From Elusimicrobia bacterium HGW-Elusimicrobia-3 (GTDB taxonomy: Bacteria; Elusimicrobiota; Elusimicrobia; Elusimicrobiales; UBA9959): 62,449 nucleotides of DNA. The stretch lies in the NCBI GenBank assembly GCA_002840355.1, contig PHAL01000017.1, positions 1 through 62,449 on the forward strand, written 5' to 3'. The notes beneath the pieces are model-generated. The model was not told the origin of the DNA. It worked only from the letters and a program-made list of their open reading frames with translations, and did no database searches. A program made the translations under genes and the position numbers. Positions 25,111 to 43,771 of the stretch are shown here, piece after piece (position 1 is the first letter of the stretch; each line of letters starts with the position of its first letter).

Positions 25111-25884
25111 ATGGATATGATGACGATCGTGGGGTTCATGCTGGGCGGGGCCGTGATGGTCTGGGGCACCTATTCCTCCGGCGTGGCCGGCAATATCTTC
25201 AACTCGCACGGCATCGTGATAGTGCTGGGCGGCACGCTGGCCGCCACCATCATCAACACCTCCTACAAACGCTTCGTGACCGGCATCAGGGCCCTCGGGG
25301 CCATTTTCTCCTCGCCCAAGATGCCCCCCGTGGACGAGGCGGTGCGCATGCTCGTCGGCATGGCCGAGACCGCCCAGAAACAGGGCGGCATCATGGCCCT
25401 GACCAGCGTGGACGCCGGCTTCGCCAACGGCTTCCTCAAGCGCGCCGTGGGCGTGGCCATGGTCAGCGCCGAGTCGCGCGAGACCCGCGCCATACTGGAA
25501 GAGGAGATCCGCCTGCGCCGCCTGGACGTTTCCGAAGACTCCAACCTCTACCGCACCGCCGGCGTCCTTTCCCCGATGTTCGGCCTCATCGGTACGCTGT
25601 TCGGCATCATCCAGACGCTCTCCAACATCTCCGACCCCACCGCCATCGGCCGCTCCATGGCCGTGGCCATCACCTCGGCCCTGTTCGGCATAGGCTTTTC
25701 CAACATGTTCTGCGTGCCGGTGGCCAACAAGATCCGCCTGCGGGCCATGGAGGAGACGCTGGTGCTGCAGCTCATCCTCGAAGGCGTGATAGACATCATG
25801 AGCGGCAAGACCCCCCACCTGATAGACATGCACCTCCGCGGCTACCTCACTCTCGACGGCGGCCCCGCCGCGAAGGGCAAATAA
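25111..25884 (+). CDS. motA: MotA-type stator protein
   Basis: 257 residues, normal for MotA/PomA. Four membrane segments: about 4-24, 32-50, then a long cytoplasmic loop (52-150), and TM3-TM4 at about 152-175 and 188-210. TM3 (VLSPMFGLIGTLFGII) and TM4 (LFGIGFSNMFCVPVANKI) keep the two functional Pro residues. The loop holds the SRETRAILEEEI charged stretch, which in flagellar MotA contacts FliG. With MotB it should form a proton- or sodium-driven rotating unit. ExbB/TolQ are related but lack this loop size. motB follows after 6 bases. No flagellar filament genes are in the window. Confidence 0.9.
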   Translation: MDMMTIVGFMLGGAVMVWGTYSSGVAGNIFNSHGIVIVLGGTLAATIINTSYKRFVTGIRALGAIFSSPKMPPVDEAVRMLVGMAETAQKQGGIMALTSVDAGFANGFLKRAVGVAMVSAESRETRAILEEEIRLRRLDVSEDSNLYRTAGVLSPMFGLIGTLFGIIQTLSNISDPTAIGRSMAVAITSALFGIGFSNMFCVPVANKIRLRAMEETLVLQLILEGVIDIMSGKTPHLIDMHLRGYLTLDGGPAAKGK

Positions 25885-25890
25885 AGACTT

Positions 25891-26517
25891 ATGCGCTTCT
25901 ACGAACGCGAGGACGAACTTGAGAACGAGCTCAACCGGGGCGCGCTGTGGGCCATCACGTACGGCGACATGATGAGCTACCTGATGATCTTCTTCATGAT
26001 CCTCTTCGCCTTCTACAGCTCCAAGAACATCACCTCGCAGTTCTCGGCCAAGGCCATAGAGGAGACCTTCGGCAAGGACACCGAGGTGGCCAGCACGCTG
26101 TTCTCCAAGCACGGCATACAGCAGATAGCCCAGGTGGAGATCTCGGCCAACAAGATCAGCATCAATTTCTCCGATCCCATCCTCTTCACGCCCGGCAGCG
26201 ACGTGCTCAAGCCCTCCTCCTACCCCCACCTGCGGCGCCTGACCGCCGTTTTCAAGGACCTGCCCAACCCGATACAGATAGAGGGGCATACCGACAACCG
26301 CCCGCTGGGGCGCGGCACCCGCTTCCGGTCCAACTGGGAACTGTCCTCGGCCAGGGCCTTCTCGGTGCTGCAGTTCTTCATTAAGGAAGGCGTGGCCCCC
26401 GAGAAGCTCTCCGCCGTGGGCTACGGCGAGTTCAAGCCGGTGCAGACCAACGAGACCACCGTGGGGCGCTCCAAGAACCGGCGCATAGAGATCAACATCA
26501 TAAGGCACGAGATCTAG
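25891..26517 (+). CDS. motB: MotB-type stator protein with OmpA domain
   Basis: 208 residues. A short cytoplasmic N-terminus, one membrane helix (about 22-45) starting AITYGDMMSYLMIFF, with the ion-binding Asp in the YGDMM motif (YADMM in flagellar MotB), then a linker and an OmpA/MotB peptidoglycan-binding domain (about 85-205) with IEGHTDNRPLG, SSARAFSVLQF and SKNRRIEI. It is shorter than E. coli MotB (308). It anchors the stator to the wall. The next gene, a sensor kinase, starts 5 bases after its stop. Confidence 0.9.
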   Translation: MRFYEREDELENELNRGALWAITYGDMMSYLMIFFMILFAFYSSKNITSQFSAKAIEETFGKDTEVASTLFSKHGIQQIAQVEISANKISINFSDPILFTPGSDVLKPSSYPHLRRLTAVFKDLPNPIQIEGHTDNRPLGRGTRFRSNWELSSARAFSVLQFFIKEGVAPEKLSAVGYGEFKPVQTNETTVGRSKNRRIEINIIRHEI

Positions 26518-26522
26518 CGCGT

Positions 26523-28643
26523 ATGAAACTGACCACGAGGTTCCTGCTGATCCTGCTGGGCATAGCGGTGCTCCCGCTGGTGCTGGCCGTCGGCTGGAAC
26601 GTCTATCAGTACAACTCCTCCGTGGCCAGCTATTTCGAGCTGCACAAGGGCCTGTCGCGCCTTTCGGCCGCCAACGTGGACGAGTGGCTCAAGAACACCA
26701 ACCGCAACCTCGCCTTCCTCTACGAGTTCGAGAACCCCCTGCGCGGCAGGAAGGTGGACGAGACGCAGGTGATACAGCAGGCGGCCCGCATCAATTCCGA
26801 CATCATGTCGCTGGCGCTGGTCTCGGCCGACGGGAAGGAGCTGTTCTTCCTGCAGAGCGAGAGCGTGCGGGAGAAGAAGTCCCTCGCCTCCTTCCAGGCG
26901 GCGCTGGTGGCCAAGGCCTCCGACAGCGGCGTGGTCTCCACCGGCGACCCCATCTGCCTGCGCGCGCAGACCTACTTCCCGCTGGCCTACCCGCTGGTGG
27001 ACGGACGCGTGGTGGTGTTCCATTTCTCGATGGACAAGCTGCTGGGCAAGATCAACTCCCAGAAGACCGGCGCCAGCGGCCGCGTCTTCATCTCCGACCG
27101 CCAGGGCAAGCCGCTGCCCTGCCAGGACATGAAGGGGCTGGATTACGCCCCCGGGGACCTGCGCAAAGTCTTCCGGAGCGGCGGCCGCACCGGCACGCTG
27201 TCCAAGTTCCTTTTTTCGGAAGAGGAGTTCGCCGGCGCCTACGCCGCCATCGAGGACCTGGACTGGGCGGCCGTCTCGGTACAGTCCGAAGAGGAACTCT
27301 ACGGCAAGCAGCGCAAATCCATCATCGTCTTCGGGGCGCTCGCCGTCGTCATCTTCGCCATCGCGATGGTCGTGGTGTTCCTGGTCTCCAACCGCATCAT
27401 CCGCCCCATCAACAACATGGTCGGCGGCGTCAAAGGCTTCCTGCGCACGCAGCACCTCGACAGCGTGATCCCCGCCGAGGGCTGGCCCGAGATCAAGTCG
27501 CTCGTGGGCGTGCTCAACCGCCTGATGCTGGAATTGCAGGCCTACCGCGCCTTCCAGCTCAACCAGATCGTGGAAGAGAAGGGCAAGGCCCAGGCGCTCA
27601 TCGACACCATTTCCGACGGCGTACTGCTCATAGACGACCGCGGCTCCCTGATCTACTGCAACAACACCGCGCTGAAGCTGCTCGGCATTCCCAAGATCTC
27701 CCCGGAGGTGGCCGTCCCCCGCTCGGTCAAGAACGAGGCTTTCTTCAACGCGCTGACCGAGATGCTTGGGCACAAGGAGAAGTACCTCAAGACCGAGGTG
27801 GACGCCCCCCTCGTCAACGAGACTTCCACCGTGACCAAGAGTTTCCGCGTCATCTCCAACCAGTTCCTGCTGGCCACGCTCAAGCGGCCGGGCCGCGTCA
27901 TCATCATCCGCGATATCACGAGCGAGAAGGAGATCGAGAAAGCCAAGGAAGACTTCTTCCACATGATCACGCACGACATGCGCGCCCCGCTGTCTACGCT
28001 GCAGGGCTATACCGAGCTGCTGATGAAGAAGATCGGCCCCTCCCCCGCCACCGACAAATATCTGGCCAGCATGCTCTACTCGTCGCGCCGCCTGCGCGGC
28101 ATGATCGACGACATCCTCAACGTCACCAAGCTCGAGCGCGGCACGATGACGCTGCAGCTCGACAATGTGGACGCCGAGGCGCTGATCACGCGCATCAAGG
28201 ACAACCACGAGCCCGTGGCGGGCCCCAAGAACATCAAGCTCACCGTGGCGCCGCTCCCCGCCAAGATCCTCGTCACGGCCGACCCGGTCCTGCTCGAGCG
28301 CGTCATCACCAACCTGATGGGCAACTCGCTCAAGTTCACCCCCGGCGGCGGCAGCATCACCCTCTCGGCCTGGGAGGACGACAAGCAGGTGTTCTTCGCC
28401 GTGGAGGACACCGGCCCCGGCATCCCCGAGGCCAAGCGCAAGGAGATCTTCGAGAAATACGGCCAGATGGAAGAGCACAAGAGCCAGGGCTTCGGCCTGG
28501 GCCTGGCCATGTGCCAGCTGACGGTGCAGCTGCACAAGGGCGACATCTGGGTGGAATCCGAGGTGGGCAAAGGCAGCAAGTTCATCTTCACCGTGTCCAA
28601 GACCATGGCGGCCCCGCCCCCGCCCATCCCCTCGCCCTCTTGA
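26523..28643 (+). CDS. Sensor histidine kinase (extracytoplasmic sensor, HAMP, PAS, HisKA, HATPase)
   Basis: 706 residues. TM1 (about 7-27), a large extracytoplasmic domain (28-260) of probable double-Cache type, TM2 (about 265-290), HAMP (about 291-340), coiled coil, PAS (about 355-470), HisKA with ITHDMRAPLSTL, and HATPase with NLMGNSLKFTP, EDTGPGIP and GFGLGLAMC. A Pro-rich tail (PPPPIPSPS) ends the protein. All kinase motifs are intact. It follows motAB and precedes two lone receiver genes, so it probably controls motor activity or expression; the ligand is unknown. Confidence 0.9.
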   Translation: MKLTTRFLLILLGIAVLPLVLAVGWNVYQYNSSVASYFELHKGLSRLSAANVDEWLKNTNRNLAFLYEFENPLRGRKVDETQVIQQAARINSDIMSLALVSADGKELFFLQSESVREKKSLASFQAALVAKASDSGVVSTGDPICLRAQTYFPLAYPLVDGRVVVFHFSMDKLLGKINSQKTGASGRVFISDRQGKPLPCQDMKGLDYAPGDLRKVFRSGGRTGTLSKFLFSEEEFAGAYAAIEDLDWAAVSVQSEEELYGKQRKSIIVFGALAVVIFAIAMVVVFLVSNRIIRPINNMVGGVKGFLRTQHLDSVIPAEGWPEIKSLVGVLNRLMLELQAYRAFQLNQIVEEKGKAQALIDTISDGVLLIDDRGSLIYCNNTALKLLGIPKISPEVAVPRSVKNEAFFNALTEMLGHKEKYLKTEVDAPLVNETSTVTKSFRVISNQFLLATLKRPGRVIIIRDITSEKEIEKAKEDFFHMITHDMRAPLSTLQGYTELLMKKIGPSPATDKYLASMLYSSRRLRGMIDDILNVTKLERGTMTLQLDNVDAEALITRIKDNHEPVAGPKNIKLTVAPLPAKILVTADPVLLERVITNLMGNSLKFTPGGGSITLSAWEDDKQVFFAVEDTGPGIPEAKRKEIFEKYGQMEEHKSQGFGLGLAMCQLTVQLHKGDIWVESEVGKGSKFIFTVSKTMAAPPPPIPSPS

Positions 28644-28662
28644 AAACCGGGCGCATTTGAAA

Positions 28663-28668
28663 TATACT
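28663..28668 (+). promoter_or_regulatory. Predicted -10 box for a leaderless receiver-gene transcript
   Basis: TATACT, then 6 bases, then the ATG at 28675. No Shine-Dalgarno intervenes. The arrangement matches that at 33591, 37361, 37480 and 59838. Confidence 0.4.
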
Positions 28669-28674
28669 AAACGC

Positions 28675-29061
28675 ATGGGACAGAATATGGGACTGATGCT
28701 TATCGTTGACGACAACGTGGAATTCCGCACGATGATCTCCGACTATTTTACGGACCTCGGCTTCACGGTGGAGATAGCCGAGAACGGGCGCGAGGGCCTG
28801 CTGAAAGCCAAGGCCATCCGCCCCGACATCATCCTCTGCGACGTGATGATGCCCGACATCGGCGGCATAGAGGTCATCCGCGGCCTGCAGGCCGACGACG
28901 AGACCCGCGCCATCCCGGTGCTGGTCATCACCGGCACCTTCTTCGACAAGGACATGAGCGAGCTGTTCCGCCAGGAGTCCAACTGCCGCGAGTTCATGAG
29001 CAAGACCGTGGAACTCTCCTACCTGCAGAAGAAAGTAGAGGACCTGACCAGGAAGAAATGA
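28675..29061 (+). CDS. Single-domain response regulator (REC)
   Basis: 128 residues from the ATG at 28675, chosen because of the -10 box 6 bases upstream; ATG 28687 has a GGGA before it and is the alternative. A receiver domain only: acidic pocket Asp12-Asp13, phosphoacceptor Asp56 (ILCDVMMPD), ITGT, and a Lys near SKTVE. With no output domain it may act like CheY, by binding a partner such as the FliG-like protein across the convergent junction, or serve as a phosphate sink for the upstream kinase. It overlaps the next receiver gene by 4 bases. Confidence 0.88.
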   Translation: MGQNMGLMLIVDDNVEFRTMISDYFTDLGFTVEIAENGREGLLKAKAIRPDIILCDVMMPDIGGIEVIRGLQADDETRAIPVLVITGTFFDKDMSELFRQESNCREFMSKTVELSYLQKKVEDLTRKK

Positions 29062-29432
29062 CCCCCCGTCCCGTTATCCTGATAGTGGACGACGAACCCG
29101 ATTACCTGCGCATCGCCTCCCGCATAGCGGCCAAGGCCGGCTGCGCCGTACTGACGGCCGCGGCGGCGCTGCCCGGCGTGGCGCTTGCCGCCGGCGAAAA
29201 ACCCGACCTGATCCTCCTCGACGTGGGCCTGCCCGACGTCAGCGGTTTCGAGGCCGCCCGCCGCATCCGCAAGGTCCCCGCGCTGGCTAAAACCCCCATC
29301 ATCTTCTTTACCGTGCGCTCCGAGCTTGACATGGTCTCGCAGGGCCTCGCCCTCGGGGCCGCCGGCTACGTGCTAAAGCCGTTCGACCCCGACGAACTGC
29401 TGCGCCGCATCGCCGCCGCGCTGCCCGCATGA
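29058..29432 (+). CDS. Single-domain response regulator (REC)
   Basis: 124 residues, a second stand-alone receiver: Asp11-Asp12 in VDDEPD, phosphoacceptor Asp55 (ILLDVGLPD), and LKPFDPDEL with the conserved Lys. All key residues present. ATGA overlaps link it to both neighbours, so the three receiver genes are one unit. It may relay phosphate or act by protein contact. It is not a duplicate of the preceding gene, since sequence outside the motifs differs strongly. Confidence 0.88.
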   Translation: MTPRPVILIVDDEPDYLRIASRIAAKAGCAVLTAAAALPGVALAAGEKPDLILLDVGLPDVSGFEAARRIRKVPALAKTPIIFFTVRSELDMVSQGLALGAAGYVLKPFDPDELLRRIAAALPA

Positions 29433-30109
29433 AGCCTGCCGCCGCCTGCCTTACCTCCGATCCCGCCGCGCGCGCTTTCTACCGCTCCGCGCTGCCGGGC
29501 TTCACGCTCAAGTTCTACCCCACCGCCGCCGCTTTCCTGAAAGCCCCCCCGGCCGCCGGGCTGGCCGTACTGGACGCCGCGCTGCCCGACATGGGCGGCG
29601 GCGACCTGGTGGCCGTGCTGCGCGGCTCTCCCAAAACCGCCGGCCTGCTGCTGGTGCTTACCGGCGGCGCTCCTTATTCCCCGGCCGCCGCCGCCGCCTC
29701 TTTCGACAGCGGCGCCGACGAGTATTTCGCCTTCCCGCCCGACCCCCTGCTGTTCCGGGCGCGGCTGCTGAACCTGCTGGGGCGCGGCCCCTCCGGCCGG
29801 CCGGCGCCCGAGAAACCGGCGGAGTACGAGTTCGGCGACCTGCGCGTCTCCCCCGAGGCCCGCACGGTCAGCGTAGCCGGCAAAAAGGCCCGCCTGACCG
29901 CCCTGGAATTCGACATTCTGCTGTACTTCCTCCGCAACCAGGGGCGCGTGGTCTCGCGCTACGTGCTGCTGGAGCAGGTGTGGAAGGACGCCGCCGAAGC
30001 CGGCCCCCGCGCCGTGGACAAGCGCATAGAAGCCCTGCGCCGCAAACTGGGGCGTTATGGGGCCAAGATCGGGACGATCTTCAGGCTGGGTTATATTTTC
30101 AGGTTGTAG
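29429..30109 (+). CDS. OmpR-type winged-helix regulator with degenerate receiver domain
   Basis: 226 residues. The C-terminal winged helix (about 130-226) is typical: LTALEFDILLYFLRNQGRVVSRYVLLEQVW, RAVDKRIEALRRKLG and FRLGYIFRL. The N-terminal receiver keeps a possible phosphoacceptor Asp (LAVLDAALPD) but starts CLTSDP instead of the DD pair, and the usual DYLxKPF reads EYFAFPPDP, without the Lys. It probably does not respond to ordinary phosphorylation and may bind DNA constitutively or through dimer partners. Ends 22 bases before a bidirectional terminator. Confidence 0.85.
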   Translation: MKPAAACLTSDPAARAFYRSALPGFTLKFYPTAAAFLKAPPAAGLAVLDAALPDMGGGDLVAVLRGSPKTAGLLLVLTGGAPYSPAAAAASFDSGADEYFAFPPDPLLFRARLLNLLGRGPSGRPAPEKPAEYEFGDLRVSPEARTVSVAGKKARLTALEFDILLYFLRNQGRVVSRYVLLEQVWKDAAEAGPRAVDKRIEALRRKLGRYGAKIGTIFRLGYIFRL

Positions 30110-30157: not shown

Positions 30158-32143
30158 TTATACGCCCAGGGGCAGGCGCACTTCCACTATCGCCCCGCGT
30201 TCCTTCTTGTTGGTCACTTCCAGCGTGCCGCCGTGCTTCTCGGCTATGCGGCGCGCCACGGCCAGGCCTATGCCGGCCTTGCCCTTGTCGGTGGTGTTGA
30301 ACGGGGCGAAAAGCTTGTCCAGCGCCTCGCGGGCGAAGCCCGGGCCGGTGTCTTCGAAGGTGAACACGGCCTGGCGCCCGTCCTCGGAGCTCTTCAGCGT
30401 CACACGCAGGCTGCCGCCCTGCTGCAGGCGCTCGTAGGCGTTCTTGATGAGGTTGTAGAAGAGCATCTTTACGCGCTCTGGCGCCAGCCGCGCGCGCAGG
30501 CGCGGGTTGAGGATGGCGGCGGTGATGGAGATCTTGCGCTGCTTGAAGGCGCGCTCCCACTTGCCCGTCTCTACGGAGACAAGGGAAGCGAGGTCCGTGT
30601 CCTCCATGTCGGGGGTCTCGGGGTCCAGGTACTCCTGCCAGCCTTTGAGCAGGTTGACGGAGGCGAAAAGCGTCTTGAGCGCGGGCTCGAGCGCCTTGCG
30701 CTCGGCGGCGGGGATGCGCAGGTTGAAGTTCTTGAGCTCCTTGGCGGAGCGCTCCAGCGAGACCAGCATCCGGGCGGAGAAATCGGCCTGTTCGCGCTTG
30801 AGCAGCCCGGTAAATTTAATATTCTTGCGGCGCAGGTCCTCGTTCTCTATCTCCAGGTCCGCCAGTTTCTTCTGGTCCTGCGCGCGGGCGGCCTTGCCGG
30901 CGCCCAGCGCCAGTTCGCGCTCCTCCACCGACTTGAGCAGGCGCGCCGAATAATCGGCGGCCGAGCCCAGTTTGGTCTTGAGCGCGTCTATCTCGGCTTC
31001 CAGCGCCTTGATCTTCAGCAGTTCCCGGCGGGAGACTTCCTTCTCCTGCGTCAGGGCGCCCTTGGCGTCGCGCAGCAGGCCGTTGACCTTCTCCAGGTCG
31101 GCCTCGCGGGTCTTTAGCATGGAGGCGGCGGCCGCGCTCTTCTCCTGCGCCTCGGCCAGCGCCGACTTGAGCGCGGCCGCGCGGTTCTGCAGCTCGAAGA
31201 CCTGGGTGACCGCGCCCGAAAAATTGGTGCGCTGCTCCTGCGCCTTAACAGAGTGCTCGTCGGCGGCCTGGCGCAGGCGCTCGGCCTCCTCCCGGGAGGC
31301 GTCCAGGCGGGCGCGCAGCGAGGCGGCTTCATCGGCGGCGGCGGTCAGGGCGGCTTCTTTCTCGGCGAGGGCGGCCTTCAGGGCGGCGGCGCGGTTTTCC
31401 AGCGCCAGCTTCTCCTCGCCGGAGATCCGGGCCCCGTAGGCGGCCTCGCCGACGGCCTTCTTAAGTTCTTCCAGTTCAGCGCCTGTCTGCCGCAGCGCGG
31501 CGCGCTGTTCGGCCAGTTCTTTTTCCGCGCCGGCCAGCGTCAGGCGCGCGGCCTTCTCCCCCTCCCCGGCGGCGGCCAGCGAGGCGGAGGAGGAGGCGGC
31601 GGCGCGTCTGGAGGCTTCCAGGCGCTCCAGCAGCTCCTCGTAAAGCGGGCGGGCCTTGCCGGTGGCGGCTTCGTCGGCGCGCAGCAGCCGGTCTATCTCG
31701 GGCAATTCCATGATGGCCGCCAGCTTGCTCCTGAACGAGGCAATGGCCTCGTCGCGGGCGGCCAGGGCCTCCTGCAGGTTCCTGGACCTGGCGCGCAGGT
31801 CCTCCAGTTCGGGCGCGGCGGCGGCCAGCTCCGTCTCCTTGCGCAGCAGGGCGCTCCGCAGTTCCTCGGCTTCGCGCGCGGCCGCGGCGGCGGCGGCCAG
31901 CCGCTCCGATCCCTCTCCGGCGGCGGCGCGCAGCCGCTCGGCTTCCGCTTTCAAATGTCTTTCGCGGGCGTGGCTCTCCGCCAGTTGTTTTTCAAGCCTG
32001 GCCGCCCTGGAGGCGGCGAGCGCCAGGCTCTTGCGCGCTTCGGCGCGTTCCGCTTCCGAGCGGGACGAGGCGTCCTGGGCCTCGCCCACGGCGCGCCACA
32101 GGTAGTCCAGGTCGGAGTCGAAGGCGTCGGCCGGGCGGCTCAC
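30158..32143 (-). CDS. Long coiled-coil protein with C-terminal HATPase domain
   Basis: 661 residues from a GTG at 32143 that overlaps the FliF-FliG stop (GTGA); the frame reads further upstream but only antisense-like sequence. Residues about 15-470 are almost continuous Ala/Glu/Lys/Arg-rich coiled coil. The C-terminal ~110 residues are a histidine-kinase-type ATPase: FYNLIKNAYERL (N-box), FEDTGPGF (G1) and GIGLAVARRIAEKHGG (G2). I find no HisKA H-box; the segment before the ATPase (SARMLVSLERSAKELKNF onward) has no suitable His. No membrane segment. It may be a scaffold or ATP-dependent partner of the FliF-FliG protein. Function unknown. Confidence 0.78.
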   Translation of the reverse strand: MSRPADAFDSDLDYLWRAVGEAQDASSRSEAERAEARKSLALAASRAARLEKQLAESHARERHLKAEAERLRAAAGEGSERLAAAAAAAREAEELRSALLRKETELAAAAPELEDLRARSRNLQEALAARDEAIASFRSKLAAIMELPEIDRLLRADEAATGKARPLYEELLERLEASRRAAASSSASLAAAGEGEKAARLTLAGAEKELAEQRAALRQTGAELEELKKAVGEAAYGARISGEEKLALENRAAALKAALAEKEAALTAAADEAASLRARLDASREEAERLRQAADEHSVKAQEQRTNFSGAVTQVFELQNRAAALKSALAEAQEKSAAAASMLKTREADLEKVNGLLRDAKGALTQEKEVSRRELLKIKALEAEIDALKTKLGSAADYSARLLKSVEERELALGAGKAARAQDQKKLADLEIENEDLRRKNIKFTGLLKREQADFSARMLVSLERSAKELKNFNLRIPAAERKALEPALKTLFASVNLLKGWQEYLDPETPDMEDTDLASLVSVETGKWERAFKQRKISITAAILNPRLRARLAPERVKMLFYNLIKNAYERLQQGGSLRVTLKSSEDGRQAVFTFEDTGPGFAREALDKLFAPFNTTDKGKAGIGLAVARRIAEKHGGTLEVTNKKERGAIVEVRLPLGV

Positions 32144-33591
32144 GCGGCCCCCTTCAGGACTATGCGGCCCTTCGCGTTGAGGTCCATCGCCGTAGAGATT
32201 ATCTTCGCCCTCGCGCCGATCACCCGCTCGTCCTCGGGACGGGTCATCATCAGGTCCTTGACCACCAGGCGCACGTCCTCGGGCAGCAGCCGGGTCACGT
32301 TGCCGGTGGCGACCTCGCCGGCGCCGGCCAGGGCGGTGGCCCAGTCGGCGTAAGGCATGGACACCACGAGCGGCTTCAGGTTCTTCTCGTCCAGGCGGCA
32401 CAGGTCGTCAAAAGTGACCATCTTGCTGCGCAGTTCCTCCGAGGCTTTCGGGTCGGCGCGGTTGAGATTGTCCATGATCTCGCTGCGCGCGCCCTCGTCG
32501 ACCAGCGACAGCAGGCGGCCCAGCTTCTCGGCGCCCTTGAGGCTCTTCTCGAGCTTCAGGCGCAGGTCGTTCTCGATCTCGTAGACGCGCTCGGGCTCGG
32601 CCTGCTTGAGGCCCAGCAGGAAGGCGGAGACGGACTGGCGCTTGGCCGGCGGCAGGGCCAGCAGTACCTTGGAGGAAATATGGGGCCTGCGGTCGGCCAT
32701 GTTGGCGATGATGATGGCGGCGTCCTCGTCGGGCAGGTCGGCGATCAGCTCGGCCGAATCGGACGGGGGCAGCTTCTCTATGAAATCGAAGGCCGAGCCG
32801 GCCGTCAGCATGGCGCCGCCCGAGGCGGCCTTGGACTCCACGTCTATGATCTCGCCGAATTCGCCCACCTCGCCGCCCCCGCTTTCGCCGGGGCCGCCCA
32901 GCGCGCCGCCGGCGGGGCCGGCGGCGGCCGCGGCGGGGCCGTTGATGCGGGCGTAATCCACGAAGCCGCTGAGCAGCTTGGAGGCCAGGATGTAGCCGAA
33001 GATCAGCAGCACGCCGAGCGCCAGCGCGCCGAAGGCGGAAGCCACCAGCACCGGGCGTATCTCGGGCGCCTCCAGGGCGCTCTTCCACCAGGGCAGCATC
33101 TCGGCCTTGGCGGTGATGATGGTGTCGCCGCGCTGCTCGCTGACGCGCAGCACTTCGGCTATCATCAGCTTGATCGCGTTCACGCGCGTGTCGGGCACGC
33201 CCCTGTCGAAAACGAGGGAGACGGCGAGCTTCTTGACGCGGAATTCGCTGGTGCGCTGGCTCTCGGCGCGCTGCTGCTTGAGGTACTCGCCGGTCTTCTC
33301 GAGGATGTTGACCGCCGAGTAGCCGGGCAGGGTCAGGTTCTCCTCGGGCGGGGAGCCGGACTCGCTCTTGCTCTTGAGCACCATCTCCCCCTCCACCGTC
33401 ACGAAGGCGCGGGCCCGGCCGCGGCCGAGCAACTGCTCGAGCAGGCGGGACACGTCATCCTGCATGCGGGCCGAGATCTCGGAGCCCTGGGCGGTGGGAG
33501 AAAGGGCCGGGTCGGCCTCCTGCGCGCCCGCGTTAAGGGCCAGGCAGAGGGACAGGACGGCTGAAAGGCGTAGGATTGCGGTCATAATCAC
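32140..33591 (-). CDS. Natural FliF(C-terminal part)-FliG fusion protein
   Basis: 483 residues, start GTG at 33591 (ATG at 33585 possible). A signal peptide (about 1-23); an extracytoplasmic domain (40-165) matching the FliF/YscJ C-terminal domain (SRLLEQLLGRGRARAFVTV; FRVKKLAVSLVFDRG; EQRGDTI); one membrane helix (180-204); a Gly/Ala linker (217-262); then FliG-like middle (265-370) and C-terminal domains (390-480, with VTFDDLCRLDEKNL and LLPEDVRLVVKDL). FliF normally has two helices plus RBM1-2, which are missing here. It could form a reduced inner-membrane ring carrying its own torque face for MotAB. Coded just upstream of the coiled-coil HATPase and convergent with motAB. Confidence 0.8.
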   Translation of the reverse strand: MIMTAILRLSAVLSLCLALNAGAQEADPALSPTAQGSEISARMQDDVSRLLEQLLGRGRARAFVTVEGEMVLKSKSESGSPPEENLTLPGYSAVNILEKTGEYLKQQRAESQRTSEFRVKKLAVSLVFDRGVPDTRVNAIKLMIAEVLRVSEQRGDTIITAKAEMLPWWKSALEAPEIRPVLVASAFGALALGVLLIFGYILASKLLSGFVDYARINGPAAAAAGPAGGALGGPGESGGGEVGEFGEIIDVESKAASGGAMLTAGSAFDFIEKLPPSDSAELIADLPDEDAAIIIANMADRRPHISSKVLLALPPAKRQSVSAFLLGLKQAEPERVYEIENDLRLKLEKSLKGAEKLGRLLSLVDEGARSEIMDNLNRADPKASEELRSKMVTFDDLCRLDEKNLKPLVVSMPYADWATALAGAGEVATGNVTRLLPEDVRLVVKDLMMTRPEDERVIGARAKIISTAMDLNAKGRIVLKGAA

Positions 33592-33622: not shown

Positions 33623-34954
33623 TTATTTCGGGGATTCAGCGCCGGCCGGCAGGTCTATCCAGAACGATGCGCCGCCGCCCGGGGCCGGGCCGCAGCCCGC
33701 CTTTCCGCCGTGCAGCTCGGCGATGGCCCTGACCAGGGCCAGGCCCAGGCCGGTGCCGCCGTGGCCGGACGCCGCCGAGCCCTGCGTGAACGGGGTGAAC
33801 AGCTTCTGCGCTTCCCCCTCGCGCAGGCCGGGCCCGGTGTCGGCCACCTCGAACCGGCACCTGCCGCCGGTAAGTGCAACGCGCAGCGTGACGGCGCCGC
33901 CCGCCGGGGTGAACTTGAGGGCGTTGGAGAGCAAATTGGTCAGCACATGCGTGATAAGCTCGCGGTCCAGCAGCGCTGCCCCCCCGGGCGGGCCGCCTTC
34001 CACCGCCAGGCTTATCCCCTTCTCCTCCGCTTTCGGCCTCAGGAAATCGGCCGCGTCGCGGGCCAGCGCCAGCGGGTCCTCGGCGGCCGGCCGCAGGTCC
34101 ATCCGGCCCCGCTCTATCCGGGCCAGGTCCAGCATGGCGGTCACGAAATTGGCCAGCCGCCCGGCGTTCTGCTTGATGCGCTCGAAGACTTCCAGGTCCT
34201 CGGACCGGAACCTCTCCTTCTCCTTGAGCAGCAGCGCGGCGTAGGTCTCTATGACGCCCAGCGGCGAGCGCAGTTCGTGCGTGACGGAGGCGGTAAAATT
34301 CTTCTTCATCGTCTCCAGCTCCAGCAGGCGGTCGCTCATCGCGTTCAGCGCGCCGGCCAGCTCGGCCACCTCGTCGGAACCGGAGGCGTCGGTCTTGGCG
34401 CCGAACTTCCCTTCCCCAACCTCCGCGGCTTCGGCGGCCAGGCGCCGCAGGCGCCGCGTCAGCCGCCGGGCCACCAGCAGGCCCAGCAGCGCCGCCGCGG
34501 CCATGGCGCCCAGGAAAGCGGCGGCCAGGTCGCGCCAGACGCCGGCCAGCGCCTCGCGCCGCTCGCCCTCGAGCGCCGCCGACGAGAAGAGCAGCTGCGC
34601 CGTATATTTGCCGCCCCGTATCTCCCGCGGCACGGGGGTTTCGCCCTTCGCCGGCGGGGCCTTGCCCCGGGTCTTTACCGGCCGCAGGCCGCGGCCTATG
34701 TCCAGGCGGCAGGCCGCTATCTCCGCCCGCGACGAGCAAAGCCCTGAAAGGTAATCTACCGCCATCAGCGGGTCGCGGGCCAGGTCGGCCTCGCCGAGCA
34801 TGGCCGCCGCGGACTGCGCCAGGGCCTGCAGGCGGGCCTCCTGCGCCTGCCGCACTGTGCGGTTCTGGAAGCTGAAGAAAATGCCGGAAAGCAGCAGGGC
34901 CGCCGCCAGGGCGGCGGCCATGAGGGCCGCGCTGAACTTGTGGAATAATTTCAT
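33623..34954 (-). CDS. Membrane sensor histidine kinase with HAMP domain
   Basis: 443 residues: TM1 (about 8-30), a short extracytoplasmic region (31-140), TM2 (about 145-165), HAMP (166-220), HisKA with VTHELRSPLGVI, and HATPase with NLLSNALKFTP, ADTGPGL and GTGLGLALV. Intact kinase. It lies between the PorV-like gene (27-base gap) and the FliF-FliG gene (31-base gap with its own -10 box). No receiver gene is adjacent on this strand; the lone receivers across the convergent junction are plausible partners. Confidence 0.9.
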   Translation of the reverse strand: MKLFHKFSAALMAAALAAALLLSGIFFSFQNRTVRQAQEARLQALAQSAAAMLGEADLARDPLMAVDYLSGLCSSRAEIAACRLDIGRGLRPVKTRGKAPPAKGETPVPREIRGGKYTAQLLFSSAALEGERREALAGVWRDLAAAFLGAMAAAALLGLLVARRLTRRLRRLAAEAAEVGEGKFGAKTDASGSDEVAELAGALNAMSDRLLELETMKKNFTASVTHELRSPLGVIETYAALLLKEKERFRSEDLEVFERIKQNAGRLANFVTAMLDLARIERGRMDLRPAAEDPLALARDAADFLRPKAEEKGISLAVEGGPPGGAALLDRELITHVLTNLLSNALKFTPAGGAVTLRVALTGGRCRFEVADTGPGLREGEAQKLFTPFTQGSAASGHGGTGLGLALVRAIAELHGGKAGCGPAPGGGASFWIDLPAGAESPK

Positions 34955-34981: not shown

Positions 34982-36952
34982 TTACCTGGAGAGCCTGATG
35001 ATGCGCTCCAGGGCCTTCTTGGCCTGCGTGTTCTGCGGGTCCAGCGTCAGGATCTTGCGGAAGGAGTCGGCCGCTTTGCCGTATTCGCCCTTCGCGTAAG
35101 CGTCGGCCCCGGCCTGGTAGAGTTTCTCTATCTCCCTGGCGTTGGCCGCCGCGCCGGTGAGCACGGGCTCGGCGGCCGCCTCGTCGCGGTACGAGCTGGT
35201 CTCGGGCTCCCAGGAGGATTCCGTGCCCTGCTTCTTGCGGGCCTCGGCGGTCATCTTGGCCAGCTTGGCCTTCTCCACCGGGTCGGGCTCGGAGCGCGCC
35301 GCCCGCTCCCAGTCGCGCGCGGCGCGGGAGTAGGCGCCCAGCATATAGTTGCACGATCCGCTCTTCTTGAGGGCCATCAGGTAGGCCGGCTCGATGTCGA
35401 GCAGTTCCTCCAGCTTGCGCAGCGCCTCGGAATAGCGCTTCTTGGCGTAGAATTCATCGGACTGGTCCAGCTTGTACTCGGGCCAGCCGCGGCTGAAGTC
35501 GGCGGGCACCTTGTCGGGCGTGATACGGGAGATCTCGCCTGCCTTATCCAGGAAGTTGGCCAGTCCGCCGTCCTGCTGGTTGAGGCTCTGGGCGTAGGCC
35601 AGCTTCTTCATCGCGCGGCTGTCGGCGCCGTTAACGAAATCCCTGACGCCGCTGGCGAGCAGGTCCTCCCAGCGGGCCCGGCCGCGGCCGGGCTCCGGGG
35701 CCAGCGACGGGTAGTAGGCCGCGACGGCCGAGAGGCGGCGCGTGAGGTTGAGCACGGACGAGTCGGGCAGCAGCTCGCCGGCCTTGGCCACCAGCAGTTT
35801 GTTGGCCGCGTAGTAATTCTCGCGCAGTACCTGCTCCTTCACTTCGGCCAGGCGGGGGTCGTTGAGGCTGGCCGTGTCGCGCGCGCCCTTGTAGTTCTGC
35901 GTCTCGCGCAGGCGCTTGTACTGGTCCAGCAGCTCGGTCTCGGCGATCTCGGCCTGGGTGGGCGTGCCGAAATGGTAGGACAGGGCCATGCGGTGGTTGC
36001 CGGAGGTCTCCTTGACCGTCCCGATAGGCAGCATGAAGCCGTAGTCGAACTGGATGCGCTGTATCTTATAGGAGAGGCCTACCGTGGCCTGCTTGAATTC
36101 CCGGTCGCCGGCCCCGAGCGAGCCGCGCACGCCGAACTCGCCCCGGTCGAGGCTGGGGAACACCTTCTCGGCCGCCACCACGAACTGCTTGTCCAGGCTG
36201 CCGTCGGGGCCTTTCTGCAGCCTGGCGTCCGCGGAGAGCAGCAGCCAGAGGCTCTTGAACGAGGCGCCCAGCCGGGCCTTCATCGGCACGGGGTCCTTGT
36301 CGGCCTCGCTGAAAGCCACGTTGGCCTGCATGGCGTTGAGTATGGCCGCGCCGAAGGTCCAGCGCTTGGTAAGGCGGTACAGCGCGCCCAGGTCGGCGTC
36401 CAGGGCGCCGCGGGCGTTGGCGCCGGCCAGCACCGGGTCCGTGGCGCCGTTCTGCGTCAGGTTCGTCTCCACGGCGTTATACGCCTCGTCGAGGCGGGTG
36501 AAGCCGTGGGACAGGTATTTAAGGGACGCGCCTACTGAAAGCTTCTCGTAGCGGCTGCTCCGGTCGAAGCGGTAGCCCCAGGCCACCGTGCCGGTCTTCT
36601 CGTAGTAGACGCCCGAGAGCGAGAAGTCCTGCCAGGCCGCGCCTATGGTGCCGTGGCGGCCGTTGCCGATGGGCACGGCCAGCGCGGCCACGCTCAGGCC
36701 CAGGCTGGAGCCGTCGCTGAGGCCGCCGTGGAAAAGGGAATGGGAGGCCAGCGCTTTCGTGCGCTCCAGGCCGCCGAGGCCGGCCGGGTTGTAATAGACC
36801 GAGGAGACATCGTCGGCCACGCCGGTGACGGCGTCGCCCATGCCGGGGCCCCTGGCCCCGAAGCCCAGGTCCTCGAAGGCCGCCCGGGCGCAAAGCGGCG
36901 CCAGCAGCAGGGCTGCGGTCAGCGCGGTCTTCGTGGCGGTGATGCGGTTCAT
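34982..36952 (-). CDS. PorV/PorQ-like outer-membrane barrel with C-terminal TPR repeats
   Basis: 656 residues. A signal peptide (about 1-24), then a beta-barrel resembling PorV/PorQ and FadL/OmpP1 proteins: ARGPGMGDAVTGVADDVSSVYYNPAGL at about 33-60, in which NPAGL is the hallmark, and repeated amphipathic strands to about residue 335. The rest (about 340-656) is helical with TPR-like repeats, the clearest near the C-terminus (YQAGADAYAKGEYGKAADSF). PorV is the shuttle of the type IX secretion system; here secretion of the nearby C-terminal-domain proteins is an inference. An 8-base gap follows the preceding small secreted gene. Confidence 0.8.
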   Translation of the reverse strand: MNRITATKTALTAALLLAPLCARAAFEDLGFGARGPGMGDAVTGVADDVSSVYYNPAGLGGLERTKALASHSLFHGGLSDGSSLGLSVAALAVPIGNGRHGTIGAAWQDFSLSGVYYEKTGTVAWGYRFDRSSRYEKLSVGASLKYLSHGFTRLDEAYNAVETNLTQNGATDPVLAGANARGALDADLGALYRLTKRWTFGAAILNAMQANVAFSEADKDPVPMKARLGASFKSLWLLLSADARLQKGPDGSLDKQFVVAAEKVFPSLDRGEFGVRGSLGAGDREFKQATVGLSYKIQRIQFDYGFMLPIGTVKETSGNHRMALSYHFGTPTQAEIAETELLDQYKRLRETQNYKGARDTASLNDPRLAEVKEQVLRENYYAANKLLVAKAGELLPDSSVLNLTRRLSAVAAYYPSLAPEPGRGRARWEDLLASGVRDFVNGADSRAMKKLAYAQSLNQQDGGLANFLDKAGEISRITPDKVPADFSRGWPEYKLDQSDEFYAKKRYSEALRKLEELLDIEPAYLMALKKSGSCNYMLGAYSRAARDWERAARSEPDPVEKAKLAKMTAEARKKQGTESSWEPETSSYRDEAAAEPVLTGAAANAREIEKLYQAGADAYAKGEYGKAADSFRKILTLDPQNTQAKKALERIIRLSR

Positions 36953-36959: not shown

Positions 36960-37361
36960 TTACCTTATAATGACTACTGTTCCTTTATATACCTTCTCTT
37001 CCAGCCTGACCTGGTATACGTAGACGCCGCCCGGGGACTTCTCCCCCCGGTTCGGGTCCCACTCCAGGTCGTAGAATTCACCCGAGCTGTTGTCCGGCAC
37101 GGGCGGCGTGCCGTTGGAGCGCTGCTTGAGGCGCATCTGCGCCACCTCGCGGCCGGAGAGGTCGTAGACCTTCGCGTCCACGGCCGCGTCACGCGGGTTA
37201 TAGCAGCGGAAAATAAAAGTGTCGTTCCTGCCGTCGCTGTTGGGCGTCACCAGGCGGTTGAGCGCCGCGGAACGGCCGAGCGCCGACGCGGAGCAGAACG
37301 CCGCCGCGGGGGCGAGCGCCAGCGCGGCGAGCAGGCAGAGGACGGCTTTGCAGGGCTTCAT
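36960..37361 (-). CDS. Small secreted protein with gliding/FlgD-like C-terminal domain
   Basis: 133 residues: a signal peptide (about 1-24) and one Ig-like domain (33-133) beginning LNRLVTPNSDGRNDTFIF and ending in GGVYVYQVRLEEKVYKGTVVIIR. This is the layout of CHU_C/gliding-motility C-terminal and FlgD Ig domains. Almost nothing else is present, so the protein is a free-standing tail domain. The same domain closes the divergent gene at 37480. Predicted transcript is leaderless (TAGAAT 8 bases before ATG). Probably acts in the periplasm or at the surface with the PorV-like protein. Confidence 0.78.
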   Translation of the reverse strand: MKPCKAVLCLLAALALAPAAAFCSASALGRSAALNRLVTPNSDGRNDTFIFRCYNPRDAAVDAKVYDLSGREVAQMRLKQRSNGTPPVPDNSSGEFYDLEWDPNRGEKSPGGVYVYQVRLEEKVYKGTVVIIR

Positions 37362-37375: not shown

Positions 37376-37467
37376 CTTTTCAATTGTGACTGTTTTGTTT
37401 CATATTTATGGATTCTGCCCGGCGTAACCGGACATCTCTCTGTAATATTTCTGTCGCACGGCCGGTA

Positions 37468-37473
37468 TATAAT
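37468..37473 (+). promoter_or_regulatory. Predicted -10 box for a leaderless transcript
   Basis: A perfect TATAAT, 6 bases, then the GTG at 37480. It argues against the in-frame ATG at 37408, which lies upstream of this box. Confidence 0.5.
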
Positions 37474-37479
37474 TACACT

Positions 37480-39096
37480 GTGAACTTCAGGCGCTTTCTA
37501 TTTTCCCTCCTCGCCCTGTCGGCCCTGCTGCCGGCCGGGCAGGCCCGCGCCTCCAGGCTCACCTCTCCGAGTTTCATAGACATCACCGGCGCCGTCGGCA
37601 ACGGCTCCGCCTACATGGTCTCCCCCAGCTTCGAGATGAACGGCAACGTGCAGGACCTGGCCGTCTCCACGCAGGAGGCCTCGGGCCTGCTGCACCGCAG
37701 CGGCAAGCTGGCCTACTATCCCTTTCCCGCCCCGGTCTTCGACCTGACGCCGGTGATAGTCTCCAGTTATTCCATCCGGCTTACCTGGACCGCCCCGTCG
37801 GCCGACGCCAGCAGGAACGCCGAGGCCGCCGGCTACTACATACTGCGCTACAGCTCCACCGCCCCGGTCTCCACCGACGAGGGCTTCGCATCGGCCCTGG
37901 TCTATGCCCAGGACTGGGCGCCGCTGGAGCCGGGCAGCCAGGAGAGCCGGGTGGTGGAGGGCTTCCAGGCCGGCACCACCTATTACTTCGCGATGGAGAC
38001 GCTCAACAGCCACTACCTGCGCTCGGAGATCTCCAACGCCGCCGCGGCGCTGGCCCTGACCCCGCTGGCCCCGATGAATTTCCAGCTCGCGCGCACCGGC
38101 AACGCCGTCACCATGACCTGGATCCCGCCGGCCGGCTACATGAACCGCATCCCTTTCGACAACCGCTTCAGCCCGTCGTTCCCCTACGAGGTGAAGAAGT
38201 ACGAGGTCTACCGCGCGACGGCCCCCGCCGACGCGGAGTGGGTGCAGATCGCCGAGACTTCCTCCAGCACGCTGAACTGGACGGATATCGTGCCCACCGC
38301 CGACCCTTATTACTACCACGCCCGCGCGGTGAACCAGGCCGGCGTTTCACTGCCTTCCTACGTGCGCTCCAGCGAGTCGGGCGGGCTCTACTTCCTGGCC
38401 CCCGACAACCAGAGCGTCTTCGAGGTGCCCCAGGAGGGCACCGGCAGCTTCTTCTCCTCCTCTGCGGACCCGATGGACGTTTACACGCTCGATATCTCCA
38501 CGCATATCGAGGACCTTAGCGGGCGCGTGGTGAAATCGGTGGAGTTCTCCGCCTACCGCGGCGGCCTCCAGGCGGACCCGCTCTTCCAGCTGGCCAGCAA
38601 GGGCACGCTGAAGCTGTATTACGCCAAAGCCGGCGGCGCCATAGTCCCCTCCGCGGCCTCGGACGCCAAGGCGCTGAGCATGTACTACTACAACGGCGCG
38701 CGCTGGCTGCAGATGTACGGCATAGTGAACGACGCCGAGCGCAGCGTGCGCCTGGACACCAGGCTGCTCGGGCGCTACCAGCTCAGGACCACGGAGCGCA
38801 GCGGCGGTTTCTCGGCGGACAAGGCCGGCCTGACCAACCGGCTGATAACTCCAAACGGGGACGGCAAAAATGATACGATGGTCTTTATTTTCGACAACCC
38901 GCAGGAGAAGCAGGTGAAGGGCAAGATCTACGACCTGCGCGGCGCCCTGGTGGGCACCATGACGGGCGGCCCCGTGACCAATTCCCTCGTCTGGGACGCC
39001 AAGGCCGGCGGCCAGACGGTGCCGGGCGGGGTCTACATCTACCAGCTGGAGGCCGACGGCACCGTCTATAACGGCACCGTGGTGGTGGTTAGGTAA
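37480..39096 (+). CDS. Secreted fibronectin-III protein with gliding/FlgD-like C-terminal domain
   Basis: 538 residues from GTG 37480, which gives a clean signal peptide (NFRRFLFSLLALSALLPAGQARA region) and follows a TATAAT by 6 bases; ATG 37408 would put 24 odd residues in front. Two fibronectin-III-like domains (about 78-195 and 198-305; SIRLTWTAP, YYFAMETLNS, AVTMTWIPP, YYYHARAVNQ), a beta-rich region (310-440), and the tail domain (about 452-538) starting TNRLITPNGDGKNDTMVF and ending GGVYIYQLEADGTVYNGTVVVVR. Expected to be exported and displayed. Followed 15 bases later by the large repeat protein with a GGAGG site. Confidence 0.8.
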   Translation: MNFRRFLFSLLALSALLPAGQARASRLTSPSFIDITGAVGNGSAYMVSPSFEMNGNVQDLAVSTQEASGLLHRSGKLAYYPFPAPVFDLTPVIVSSYSIRLTWTAPSADASRNAEAAGYYILRYSSTAPVSTDEGFASALVYAQDWAPLEPGSQESRVVEGFQAGTTYYFAMETLNSHYLRSEISNAAAALALTPLAPMNFQLARTGNAVTMTWIPPAGYMNRIPFDNRFSPSFPYEVKKYEVYRATAPADAEWVQIAETSSSTLNWTDIVPTADPYYYHARAVNQAGVSLPSYVRSSESGGLYFLAPDNQSVFEVPQEGTGSFFSSSADPMDVYTLDISTHIEDLSGRVVKSVEFSAYRGGLQADPLFQLASKGTLKLYYAKAGGAIVPSAASDAKALSMYYYNGARWLQMYGIVNDAERSVRLDTRLLGRYQLRTTERSGGFSADKAGLTNRLITPNGDGKNDTMVFIFDNPQEKQVKGKIYDLRGALVGTMTGGPVTNSLVWDAKAGGQTVPGGVYIYQLEADGTVYNGTVVVVR

Positions 39097-39111
39097 CGCG
39101 GCGGAGGACTT

Positions 39112-42100
39112 ATGAATTCTTATCCTTTTAAAAATCTGCTCGCAGGCGCGCTGGGGACGCTGCTGTTCACGGCGGCGCCCGCCGGCGCGGTGATAACCCC
39201 GACGATAAACTACCAGGGCTACCTGATCAGCAAGATCACCAATCTCCCCGTGGAGACGCCGCAGGACCTGAAGTTCTATATCTACGACACCCCTACGGGC
39301 ATCACCAGCCCGCTGTTCTCGGAAACCCGCTGCGACGTCAAGGTGACCAAGGGCCGCTACGACGTGGAGATCGGGTCGGCCATAGCCGGAGGCATTCCCG
39401 CCAGCATCTTCGCCGAGCGCGACGGCCTGTGGCTGGAGATACAGGTGGACGGCGACAACGACTGCGCCGGCGCCTTCGAGGCCATGTCCCCCCGCGTCAA
39501 ACTCCAGGCATCACCGTACGCTTTCAGTTCCGTTTACGCCACCACTTCGTCCGTTGCCACCTCGGTGTTCCTGGCCGATACCATTGGCGCGCACCCTTAC
39601 ACCGCCAACGGGGCCATTACCATCTCCACCAACCTGTTCGTGCTGGGCGGCATCTCGGTGGGCTCCATCTCCCCCGGCCAGACGCTGGCCGTGGCCGGCA
39701 TGGTGGAAAGCAAGGGCTCCCTGCCGGCCTGCGCCGACGACAATTCCTGCGGCTTCAAGTTCCCCGACGGGTCCGTGCAGACCAGGGCCGCCGCCCTTAC
39801 CATGTGGGAGGTGGCCGGCCCGCACGTCTACTCCATTAACCCCGGCAATGTGTCCATCGGCGAGGACAACACCGAGCCGCTGGCCAGGCTGCACATCTCG
39901 TCGGCCGCCGGCGACGCCGGCGACCTGCTGCTGGTCTCCACCGGCACCTCTCAGTTGTTTCTCGTCAACGGCCTGGGCCAGGTGCACGGCGGCTCTTTTT
40001 ACGGCGACGGCACCACGCTGACGGGCGTGCTGCGCCAGGCCGGCGACACGATGACCGGCCAGCTGACCCTCTCCGGCTCCACCCTCACCGTGGCGTCTCC
40101 GGCCGGCCTGCTGTCCCCCAAGGTGAAGTTTTCCGACGGGGTTGAGATCTCTTCGGCCCCCGCCGCGCAGCGCGGCGGGCTATTTATCAGCTCGCACGTC
40201 TACCTGCTGCCCGGCGCCACCTTCTACGGCGACGGCTCGGGCCTGATCAACCTGGTTTCTTCCGACACCAGCAAGGTGCTCAAGGACGGCGACACGATGA
40301 CCGGCCAGCTGACCCTGGCCGGCTCCACGCTGACCGTGACCGGCAGCGCTTTCTCCGTGGGCGGCTCGAGCCTCTCGGTCCTGAATGGCAATACGGCCGT
40401 AGGCAGCGCCGCCTACCTGGCCCGCTTGACGGTGGGCGGCGGCATCATCGCCACCTCCAGCATTACGGCCCAGGGGGCCATGCACGCGGCTTCGGTACAC
40501 GCGCCCGCGGGCATCGGCAATTTCTATAACGTGACGGCTGCCACCGGCACTTTCTGGGGCTGGGATCCCGGCACCACTTACAGCCTGGACACGGCCAGCG
40601 GCGTGCTGGTGCGCTCGGGCGTGGTCAACGCCCCCTATTTCATCGGCAACGGTTCGCTGCTGACCAATGTCACCGGCACCGACTCCACCAAGCTGCTCAA
40701 GACCGGGGACACCATGACCGGCAATTTGATAGTTTCCCCTTCCAGCGTAACGCTGGCCTCTTTTGGCGCGCACAAGTACGCCCTCACGGTGGCCAGCGCG
40801 GCCGCCGTGAACGCCTATTCGCTGGCGGTCACCACGTCGGGCAGGGTAGGCGTGCTGGTGCAGACCCCCGCCGCGCCTCTGGACGTGGCCGGCGAGGCAA
40901 TGGTCTCCTACGCCAGTACGGTTAACGGCGCGGCCAAACTGAGCATCAAATCTTATAACGATTACAGCTACATACACTGGACCAACTCCTCTCTGGTGGC
41001 TTCGGGCGGCGTGAACCTGGGCGTGCTGGGCTATCCCGGCGGCCTCGAGCGGGACCTGATCTACAGGGCGGCGGGCAGCGATCCGTGGAACGGCGGGCAG
41101 GAGGTCTTCCGCATAAAGTCCGACCAATTCGGGAACTGGATGTTCGGTATCGGCAGCTCGCCGAGCGTCGCGGACCAGCCGCGTGAAAAGTTCCACGTGA
41201 TGTCGAACCTGCTGGTAAGCAGCACTACGGCCAGCGCCATGCCCATACTCTACGTCAGTACCGCGGCCGGCAAGGTCTCCATCGGCACCAGGACGCAGAC
41301 CCACCTGCTCAGCGTCAACGGCGGCATCAACGCCGTCTCCTCCGTAACGGCGCAGGGCGGCTTCTACGGCAACGGGTCCGGCCTGACTGACCTGGTGACG
41401 GAGTCGCTGCCCGGCCTGATACAGATCTCCACCATCACCGCCCGCACCGGCGGGCTGTACGACGCCGTGCTGTTCAGCACCAGCGTCTACGTGCAGAACA
41501 AGCTGGCGGTGGGCGGCCTGTTCAACCCGGTCGCGGACCTCCACGTTAAAGGCGTGGTGCGCATGGACCAGCGGAATATCGGCGACGAGGTGGTGCTGTC
41601 CCTCGATCCCGCCACCGGCGGCAACACCTATATAGTCTGGAACGAGGGCGCCACCCCCCAGAAGGGCGTGCTGGGTATGCTCTCGTCGGAGCGCGACCTC
41701 GTTTACCGCGGCGGCGCCAGCAACCTGACCAACGGCGTGCAGGTGTTCAGGATAAAGGATACCGGGCCGTTCATCGTCGGCGAGGTCGACAAGAATTTCC
41801 TGCCCGCCTCGCGCATGCACGTGGCCGCCGACCTGACCGTCAGCGCCTCCGGCGCGGGCTCCACCCCCGCGCTGTTCGTTTCCACCGCGGCCAGGTATGT
41901 GGGCGTGAACACCGGCGCGCCGCAGGCCAGGCTGCACGTGGACGGTTACTCACTGTTCGCGTCTTCAGCCTCCATACTCGGCGGCGGCCTGTCCGGCGCC
42001 CAGAGCGCGCTGGAAGTGATCGGCTCCACCCTGGTGGTCCGTAACGACGGCACCGTGGGCATAGGCGTCGCTTCCCCGGCCGAGCGGCTGGACGTGGCCG

Positions 42101-42467: not shown

Positions 42468-42504
42468 GACCCCGCGCGGACGGCTATGCCTTGCCGCGCG
42501 CGGC

Positions 42505-42536
42505 AAAGCCCTGAAGACAGCTTCGGGGCTTTTTTT
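42505..42536 (+). terminator. Riboswitch-controlled terminator abutting the ribBA start
   Basis: AAAGCCCTGAAG pairs with CTTCGGGGCTTT around an ACAG loop and runs into seven T. The T run ends at 42536 and the ribBA ATG is at 42537. The only ribosome-site-like GGGG (42525-42528) is inside the 3' arm, so the hairpin could block both transcription and translation when FMN is bound. Confidence 0.85.
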
Positions 42537-43760: not shown

Positions 43761-43771
43761 GGAGAATAAAA

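Follow-up and report, generated by a model that had tools for sequence, protein, structure and literature searches.

A FliF-FliG fusion encoded beside MotAB stator genes, a probable rotor subunit of a flagellum-independent machine in Elusimicrobiota

The DNA described here, referred to as the window, covers positions 1 to 62,449 of contig PHAL01000017.1 of Elusimicrobia bacterium HGW-Elusimicrobia-3 (GCA_002840355.1), an Elusimicrobiota metagenome-assembled genome (MAG) that is 97% complete. Its subject is a fusion gene at 32140..33591 on the minus strand, encoding a protein of 483 residues in which a part of the flagellar ring protein FliF, comprising the ring-building motif (RBM) RBM3 and one transmembrane (TM) helix, is followed by the middle (M) and C-terminal (C) domains of the rotor protein FliG. 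The initial annotation had given the same coordinates and left the strand unstated. The reading frame begins with GTG in the window, and an ATG two codons downstream is the start in relatives. The layout of the fusion is as follows, with the evidence for each feature in parentheses.

32140..33591, minus strand: FliF(RBM3)-TM-FliG(M,C) fusion gene, 483 residues (domain matches, relatives, model, profile alignment)
33523..33591, minus strand: N-terminal signal peptide, residues 1-23, ending in LNAGA/Q (sequence; hydrophobic segment 1-19)
33370..33501, minus strand: first half of RBM3, helix-strand, residues 31-74 (model with helix 34-55 and strand 60-74; FliF RBM3 match of 31-155)
33250..33369, minus strand: shortened beta-collar insert, residues 75-114 (relatives; model, of low confidence there)
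33097..33249, minus strand: second half of RBM3, strand-helix, residues 115-165, with the Pfam FliF_C match (Pfam, model, profile alignment)
32977..33051, minus strand: single TM helix, residues ~181-205, equivalent to FliF TM2 (model, hydrophobicity)
32806..32976, minus strand: cytoplasmic linker rich in Gly/Ala, residues 206-262, differing from relative to relative (alignment; predicted local distance difference test, pLDDT, < 50 over 218-262)
32542..32805, minus strand: FliG middle domain, residues 263-350 (Pfam; structure match 4fq0, Z 11.9)
32155..32469, minus strand: FliG C-terminal, stator-facing domain, residues 375-479 (Pfam; structure match 8ucs_H, Z 12.7, root-mean-square deviation, rmsd, 1.8)

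The FliG part is matched in Pfam by FliG_C at residues 375-479 (E 3e-15) and FliG_M at residues 303-350 (E 1.3e-5). FliG_N gave no Pfam match in the window fusion, and the structural match to FliG begins only at FliG residue ~100; in the model the segment between the TM helix and FliG_M, in the place of FliG_N, is a disordered linker whose Gly/Ala-rich part (~217-250) is visible in the sequence. RBM1, RBM2, and the first TM helix of FliF are absent from the window fusion, so that the two TM helices of flagellar FliF are represented by a signal peptide and one helix; a signal peptide is also found in most fusions of the phylum. The collar insert lies between the two halves of RBM3, as it does in FliF. 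The severe shortening of FliF, the signal peptide replacing its first helix, and the Gly/Ala linker to FliG, all read from the sequence in the initial annotation, are borne out.

The Pfam match to FliF_C (residues 99-158, E 0.0045) is below threshold, and the FliF assignment was therefore examined by three further routes. Among the fusions of the phylum, three old groups are distinguished, namely A (C83 type), B (C63 type), and C (C22 and the window fusion), named here by host contigs. First, the FliF_C match of the paralogue on C22 lies above the Pfam cut-off. Second, in profile-profile alignments the periplasmic segment maps to FliF residues 231-381 with a probability of 95% for type A and 98% for type B, and the profile of the window type aligns with those of types A and B with probabilities of 96% and 95%, respectively, whereas reversed-sequence controls gave 0.7% or less. 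Third, in an AlphaFold2 model of the window fusion (mean pLDDT 64.6), residues 31-155 match RBM3/S-ring structures of FliF (Z 6.7) and residues 263-479 match FliG ~100-323 (Z 17.9); the FliG_C domain of the model matches MotAB-bound FliG (8ucs) with a Z of 12.7 and an rmsd of 1.8. The presence of the FliF-specific RBM3 domain in the window fusion is confirmed, the case being strongest through its paralogues.

The host genome has FliG_C at five places, on C83, C78 (the window), C22, C68, and C63. Four of these five fusions are intact. The fifth is broken across two contigs, with one half at an end of C76 and the other at an end of C68; in congeners such as G127 its halves form one open frame. 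Six MotA_ExbB genes are present, comprising one of TolQ/ExbB size (218 residues, on C11) and five MotAs, each of which adjoins one of the five fusions. The flagellar export gate protein FlhA, the RBM1/2 family YscJ_FliF (PF01514), the switch proteins FliM/FliN (SpoA), and rod/hook proteins (PF00460) were not found in this genome by searches whose positive controls worked, and a hidden flagellum is ruled out on these grounds.

The genes around the fusion in the window are listed below.

25111..25884, plus strand: MotA, PomA-like flagellar-type stator A subunit (profiles, structure; syntenic in relatives)
25891..26517, plus strand: MotB, with a TM helix bearing the ion-binding Asp in YGDMM and an OmpA peptidoglycan-binding domain (profiles, structure, alignment)
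26523..28643, plus strand: dCache-PAS histidine kinase in the MotAB operon (synteny, domain match)
28657..29061, plus strand: response-regulator receiver protein (synteny, sequence)
29058..29432, plus strand: second receiver protein (synteny, sequence)
29429..30109, plus strand: OmpR-type response regulator (Pfam, synteny)
30158..32125, minus strand: coiled-coil protein with a histidine-kinase ATPase domain, the next gene downstream of the fusion (Pfam, synteny); its start is uncertain, the open frame extending to 32401
33623..34954, minus strand: HAMP histidine kinase, the next gene upstream of the fusion (Pfam, synteny)
34982..36952, minus strand: outer-membrane beta-barrel of the FadL/PorV/PorP type with a C-terminal TPR domain (model, profiles; conserved beside fusions)
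36960..37361, minus strand: 133-residue secreted protein made up of a CHU_C-type C-terminal domain, like type B domains of the type IX secretion system (Pfam, profiles, synteny)

Further along the window, positions 37408-42339 hold an Fn3 protein with a CHU_C-type C-terminal domain and a 1075-residue repetitive secreted protein, both conserved in relatives, and ordinary genes for riboflavin synthesis, RibBA and RibD among them, adjoin the motor locus at 42486-45920.

A scan of genome contigs yielded 18 relatives of the window fusion in Elusimicrobia MAGs, 17 at 64-96% identity and one at 49%; the most diverged is that of locus L066 and the second most diverged that of L064 (UBA11697). The two parts are fused wherever a contig spans the entire gene, and no pseudogene was seen among the 18. 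Separate fliF and fliG genes, which would have pointed to an assembly join in the window, occur only in rare flagellated relatives and are different genes. Close relatives share the same order of ten genes where contigs permit: the CHU_C protein, the barrel-TPR protein, the histidine kinase, the fusion, the coiled-coil kinase, the facing response regulator, the two receivers, the PAS kinase, MotB, and MotA. The clean reading frame noted in the initial annotation also holds. For the closest pair, the window and L050, the ratio of nonsynonymous to synonymous substitution rates is 0.11 for the whole gene and 0.05 for its FliG part; the window fusion is under purifying selection.

The system extends across the phylum. 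FliG_C is present in 151 of 340 phylum genomes and 69 of 100 genera, with up to eight FliG_C genes per genome, and FlhA in five of the 340. Families f2 and f21, which have small genomes and, going by inferred names, are probably the gut Elusimicrobiaceae and the Endomicrobia, have FliG_C in only one of 166 genomes, versus 150 of 174 elsewhere. These two families are likely host-associated, and nearly all phylum genomes lacking FliG_C belong to them; FliG_C is present in most of the remaining families. A recurring order was seen in 20 stretches from diverse genera, namely a FadL/PorV-type barrel-TPR protein, the fusion, a long coiled coil, MotA, one or two MotBs, and a lipoprotein, with parts missing in some of the 20. 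In every complete fusion examined, a single TM helix separates the RBM3 part from FliG. The copy numbers of FliG_C and MotA_ExbB correlate (r 0.83 in 59 family genomes and 0.80 in 40 genomes at least 90% complete), with a significance that is inflated by shared ancestry.

In the flagellated members G166, G110, and G117, fliF and fliG lie side by side as two genes and FliF is of normal length; they are also separate in flagellated G168, where FliG is short and FliF incomplete in the stretch examined. The FliG of the FlhA-bearing flagellar operon of G168 (L100:1024-1770, on contig C208) has only 248 residues, and no FliG_C was found in that genome. In a tree of 51 sequences, flagellar FliF and FliG stand apart from all fusions with a local support of 0.993; the flagellar group comprises three Elusimicrobiota and one Thermotogae, the tree is rooted by this group only, and divergence is high. 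The fusions divide into groups A, B, and C in this tree, which fits a single origin of the fusions from adjacent fliF and fliG genes. Two variants were observed within type A. A stand-alone FliG-like gene of 346 residues (L099:8336-9376, G326:C15), in a genome without detected FlhA, nests inside the type A fusions and looks like a copy that dropped its FliF part. Furthermore, the type A fusions in L045 (G003:C8), G196:C79, G212:C136, and G213:C64 extend into open frames of ~1000-1280 residues, perhaps joined to the downstream coiled-coil protein.

The stator proteins are of the flagellar type. The MotA in the window matches a PomA model at 1.7e-45 versus 6e-4 for TolQ, and is PomA/MotA-like in structure comparison as well. 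The ion-binding Asp is kept in the MotBs of the four clusters aligned; the fifth cluster has two MotBs, one of which keeps it. The C68 cluster (L013) has two MotB-like genes, one with Asp (YSDL) and the other with Gly (YIGVM), the sequences of which suggest an asymmetric stator axle; two MotBs also stand in tandem after MotA at the type B fusion loci L079, L081, L082, L083, L084, L089, and L014. On the rotor side, the charges examined were K264, R281, D288, D289, and R297. At the stator-facing acidic position that corresponds to D288 of E. coli, all 33 type A fusions carry Glu. The EHPQ motif for FliM binding is altered, to EDPW or EEPW in most of type A and to different residues in types B and C; such a change is expected of proteins that have no FliM to bind.

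Taken together, these data make it probable that the fusion is the rotor subunit of a rotary machine of the envelope, driven by MotAB and independent of a flagellum. In the proposed machine, the RBM3 part would lie in the periplasm and probably oligomerize into an S-ring-like ring, by analogy with SpoIIIAG and the S-ring, in which RBM3 alone is a ring-forming fold; one helix would cross the inner membrane; and the M and C domains of the attached FliG would form a torque ring in the cytoplasm, the covalent junction replacing the clip between the FliF tail and FliG_N. MotA of the same locus would push on FliG_C, and the OmpA domain of MotB would anchor the stator to peptidoglycan. Since FlhA, rod, and FliM/FliN are undetected, export gate, axle, and switch ring would all be lacking, and the output is most likely a moving periplasmic ring, whose motion would most likely be relayed to the FadL/PorV-type outer-membrane barrel with its TPR arm. 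The work done at the outer membrane could be to move surface proteins or to load them, in a manner resembling gliding or type IX secretion. PorP-like proteins are reported as anchors of type B C-terminal domain (CTD) proteins in Bacteroidota (PMC9143113), and the 133-residue CHU_C protein is similar to the type B sorting domains of type IX secretion, a parallel that suggests a surface-protein role for the window locus. The barrel neighbouring the C22 fusion scores 147 bits against the PorV/PorQ cut-off of 90 and passes it, and the window barrel has a FadL-like model (mean pLDDT 55) whose structure matches include a type IX secretion chain. We infer ring formation, rotation, outer-membrane coupling, and the biological output from these data.

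Several observations weigh against this reading or parts of it. Compared directly with the FliF profile, the window type reaches a probability of 75% over 42 columns only, and its RBM3 region is modelled at low confidence. The window type has mostly lost the torque charges, K264 and D289 among them, and the window MotA is without several PomA interface charges, so that the contact between rotor and stator in the window must differ from the textbook contact; judged by these residues, the fusion and its MotA have probably drifted together. L064 is the sole relative without MotAB in an otherwise conserved locus of the window type. The window barrel, at 55 bits, is below the cut-off of 90 for NF033709 (PorV/PorQ) and also below that of the PorP subfamily. 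Finally, no SprA_N match to the type IX core protein SprA/Sov was obtained in the host genome, in a search that had no positive control.

The alternative that survives best, although it is unlikely, is a non-rotating force transducer, in which MotAB would slightly move or tilt the FliG/RBM3 ring and thereby pull or push an outer-membrane partner, as in ExbBD-TonB or TolQR-TolA. It would account for the outer-membrane barrel that often adjoins the fusions, the reduced torque charges of subfamily C, and the lack of a detected FliM/FliN switch; however, MotA belongs with flagellar PomA/MotA rather than with TolQ/ExbB, keeping FliG_M and FliG_C on an RBM3 ring would be costly for a simple pull, and the acidic torque residue is retained without exception in type A. 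More doubtful still is a surface-contact or mechanical sensor, in which the histidine kinases of the locus would read the load between stator and rotor. Synteny with the window fusion extends to three histidine kinases and three receiver proteins, and the C22 cluster contains a histidine kinase as well, but the kinases are inconstant in the phylum-wide operon, where the barrel and MotAB are usually present, and such regulators could equally control expression.

A decaying, functionless remnant of a flagellum is very improbable. Only flagellar motor parts remain and a few relatives are still flagellated, as such decay might leave them, but strong purifying selection, the number of copies (five here and up to eight elsewhere), and the pairing of one MotA with each fusion contradict it, and the fusions form a group apart from the phylum's own flagellar genes. 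A role in type III export, within an injectisome-like or residual system of the kind suggested for the fusion of Chlamydia (PMC4768692), has that precedent in its favour and is equally improbable, with no FlhA/SctV, RBM1/2 (SctJ-like), or SpoA protein found in the nearly complete genome. That two genes were joined by an error of assembly or binning, or that the fusion stems from contamination, can practically be dismissed: the evidence comes from MAGs only, but 18 independent relatives with the identical fusion and gene order, the shared architecture of other paralogues, and the split paralogue that is whole in congeners rule out an assembly join.

The rotor subunit proposed here shares with the flagellar FliF-FliG rotor and its MotAB stator the RBM3 fold, TM2, FliG M and C, a PomA/MotA-type MotA, and a MotB with Asp and OmpA domain, and differs in lacking RBM1, RBM2, TM1, and FliG_N, in being covalently fused, in occurring in several copies per genome, and in the failure to detect FliM/FliN, FlhA, or a rod. 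A natural short FliF fused to FliG-like sequence is already described in the Chlamydiaceae, also bacteria not thought to be flagellated; that protein has ~330 residues, an RBM2-like domain, two TM helices, and, as described, FliG_M only, and occurs alongside FlhA and an injectisome (Bergeron 2016, PMC4768692). By contrast, the Elusimicrobiota fusion keeps RBM3, has FliG_C, and adjoins MotAB in a genome without detected FlhA. Engineered FliF-FliG fusions (Salmonella; Vibrio, PMC11481574, PDB 8z4d) likewise assemble into a covalent ring that works, but they are man-made, operate in complete flagella, and retain a FliF that is not cut down to RBM3. The sporulation ring protein SpoIIIAG resembles the fusion as a single RBM-with-collar ring protein on one TM helix (5wc3, Z 5.5 against the window model), although it has no FliG, no MotAB, and another context. 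In the type IX secretion and gliding of Bacteroidota, the GldLM/PorLM motor, which also belongs to the MotAB superfamily, is driven by ions in the inner membrane and works together with outer-membrane proteins of the PorV/PorP type and with CTD proteins; no FliF/FliG rotor is known there.

The initial annotation had called the fusion a new ring architecture; its layout is indeed distinct, while a different natural short fusion was already known from Chlamydiaceae and the ring itself is deduced from the RBM3 fold. It also understated the case, in that the flagellum is absent, each of five paralogues has its own MotA, and the system is phylum-wide. No description of a FliF-FliG fusion system in Elusimicrobiota was found in the searchable literature, which does not extend to subscription papers, and its novelty is provisional. 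On balance, we lean slightly towards a new class of rotary nanomachine, with a one-protein RBM3-FliG rotor, dedicated MotAB, no flagellum, export gate, or switch ring, and a periplasmic ring acting on a PorV-type barrel; if this is true, the several FliG_C genes per genome could represent versions serving different surface functions.

In a recent survey, 11% of non-motile species had rotor proteins but no filaments, and the survey did not settle what these proteins do (2025, PMC12199754). The Elusimicrobiota system would provide a concrete, testable case for such filament-less rotor function, in which a minimal core of the flagellar motor, a stator and a fused rotor, has long been kept in bacteria without a flagellum, and it bears on how the FliF ring, FliG, and MotAB can work as a module apart from type III export.

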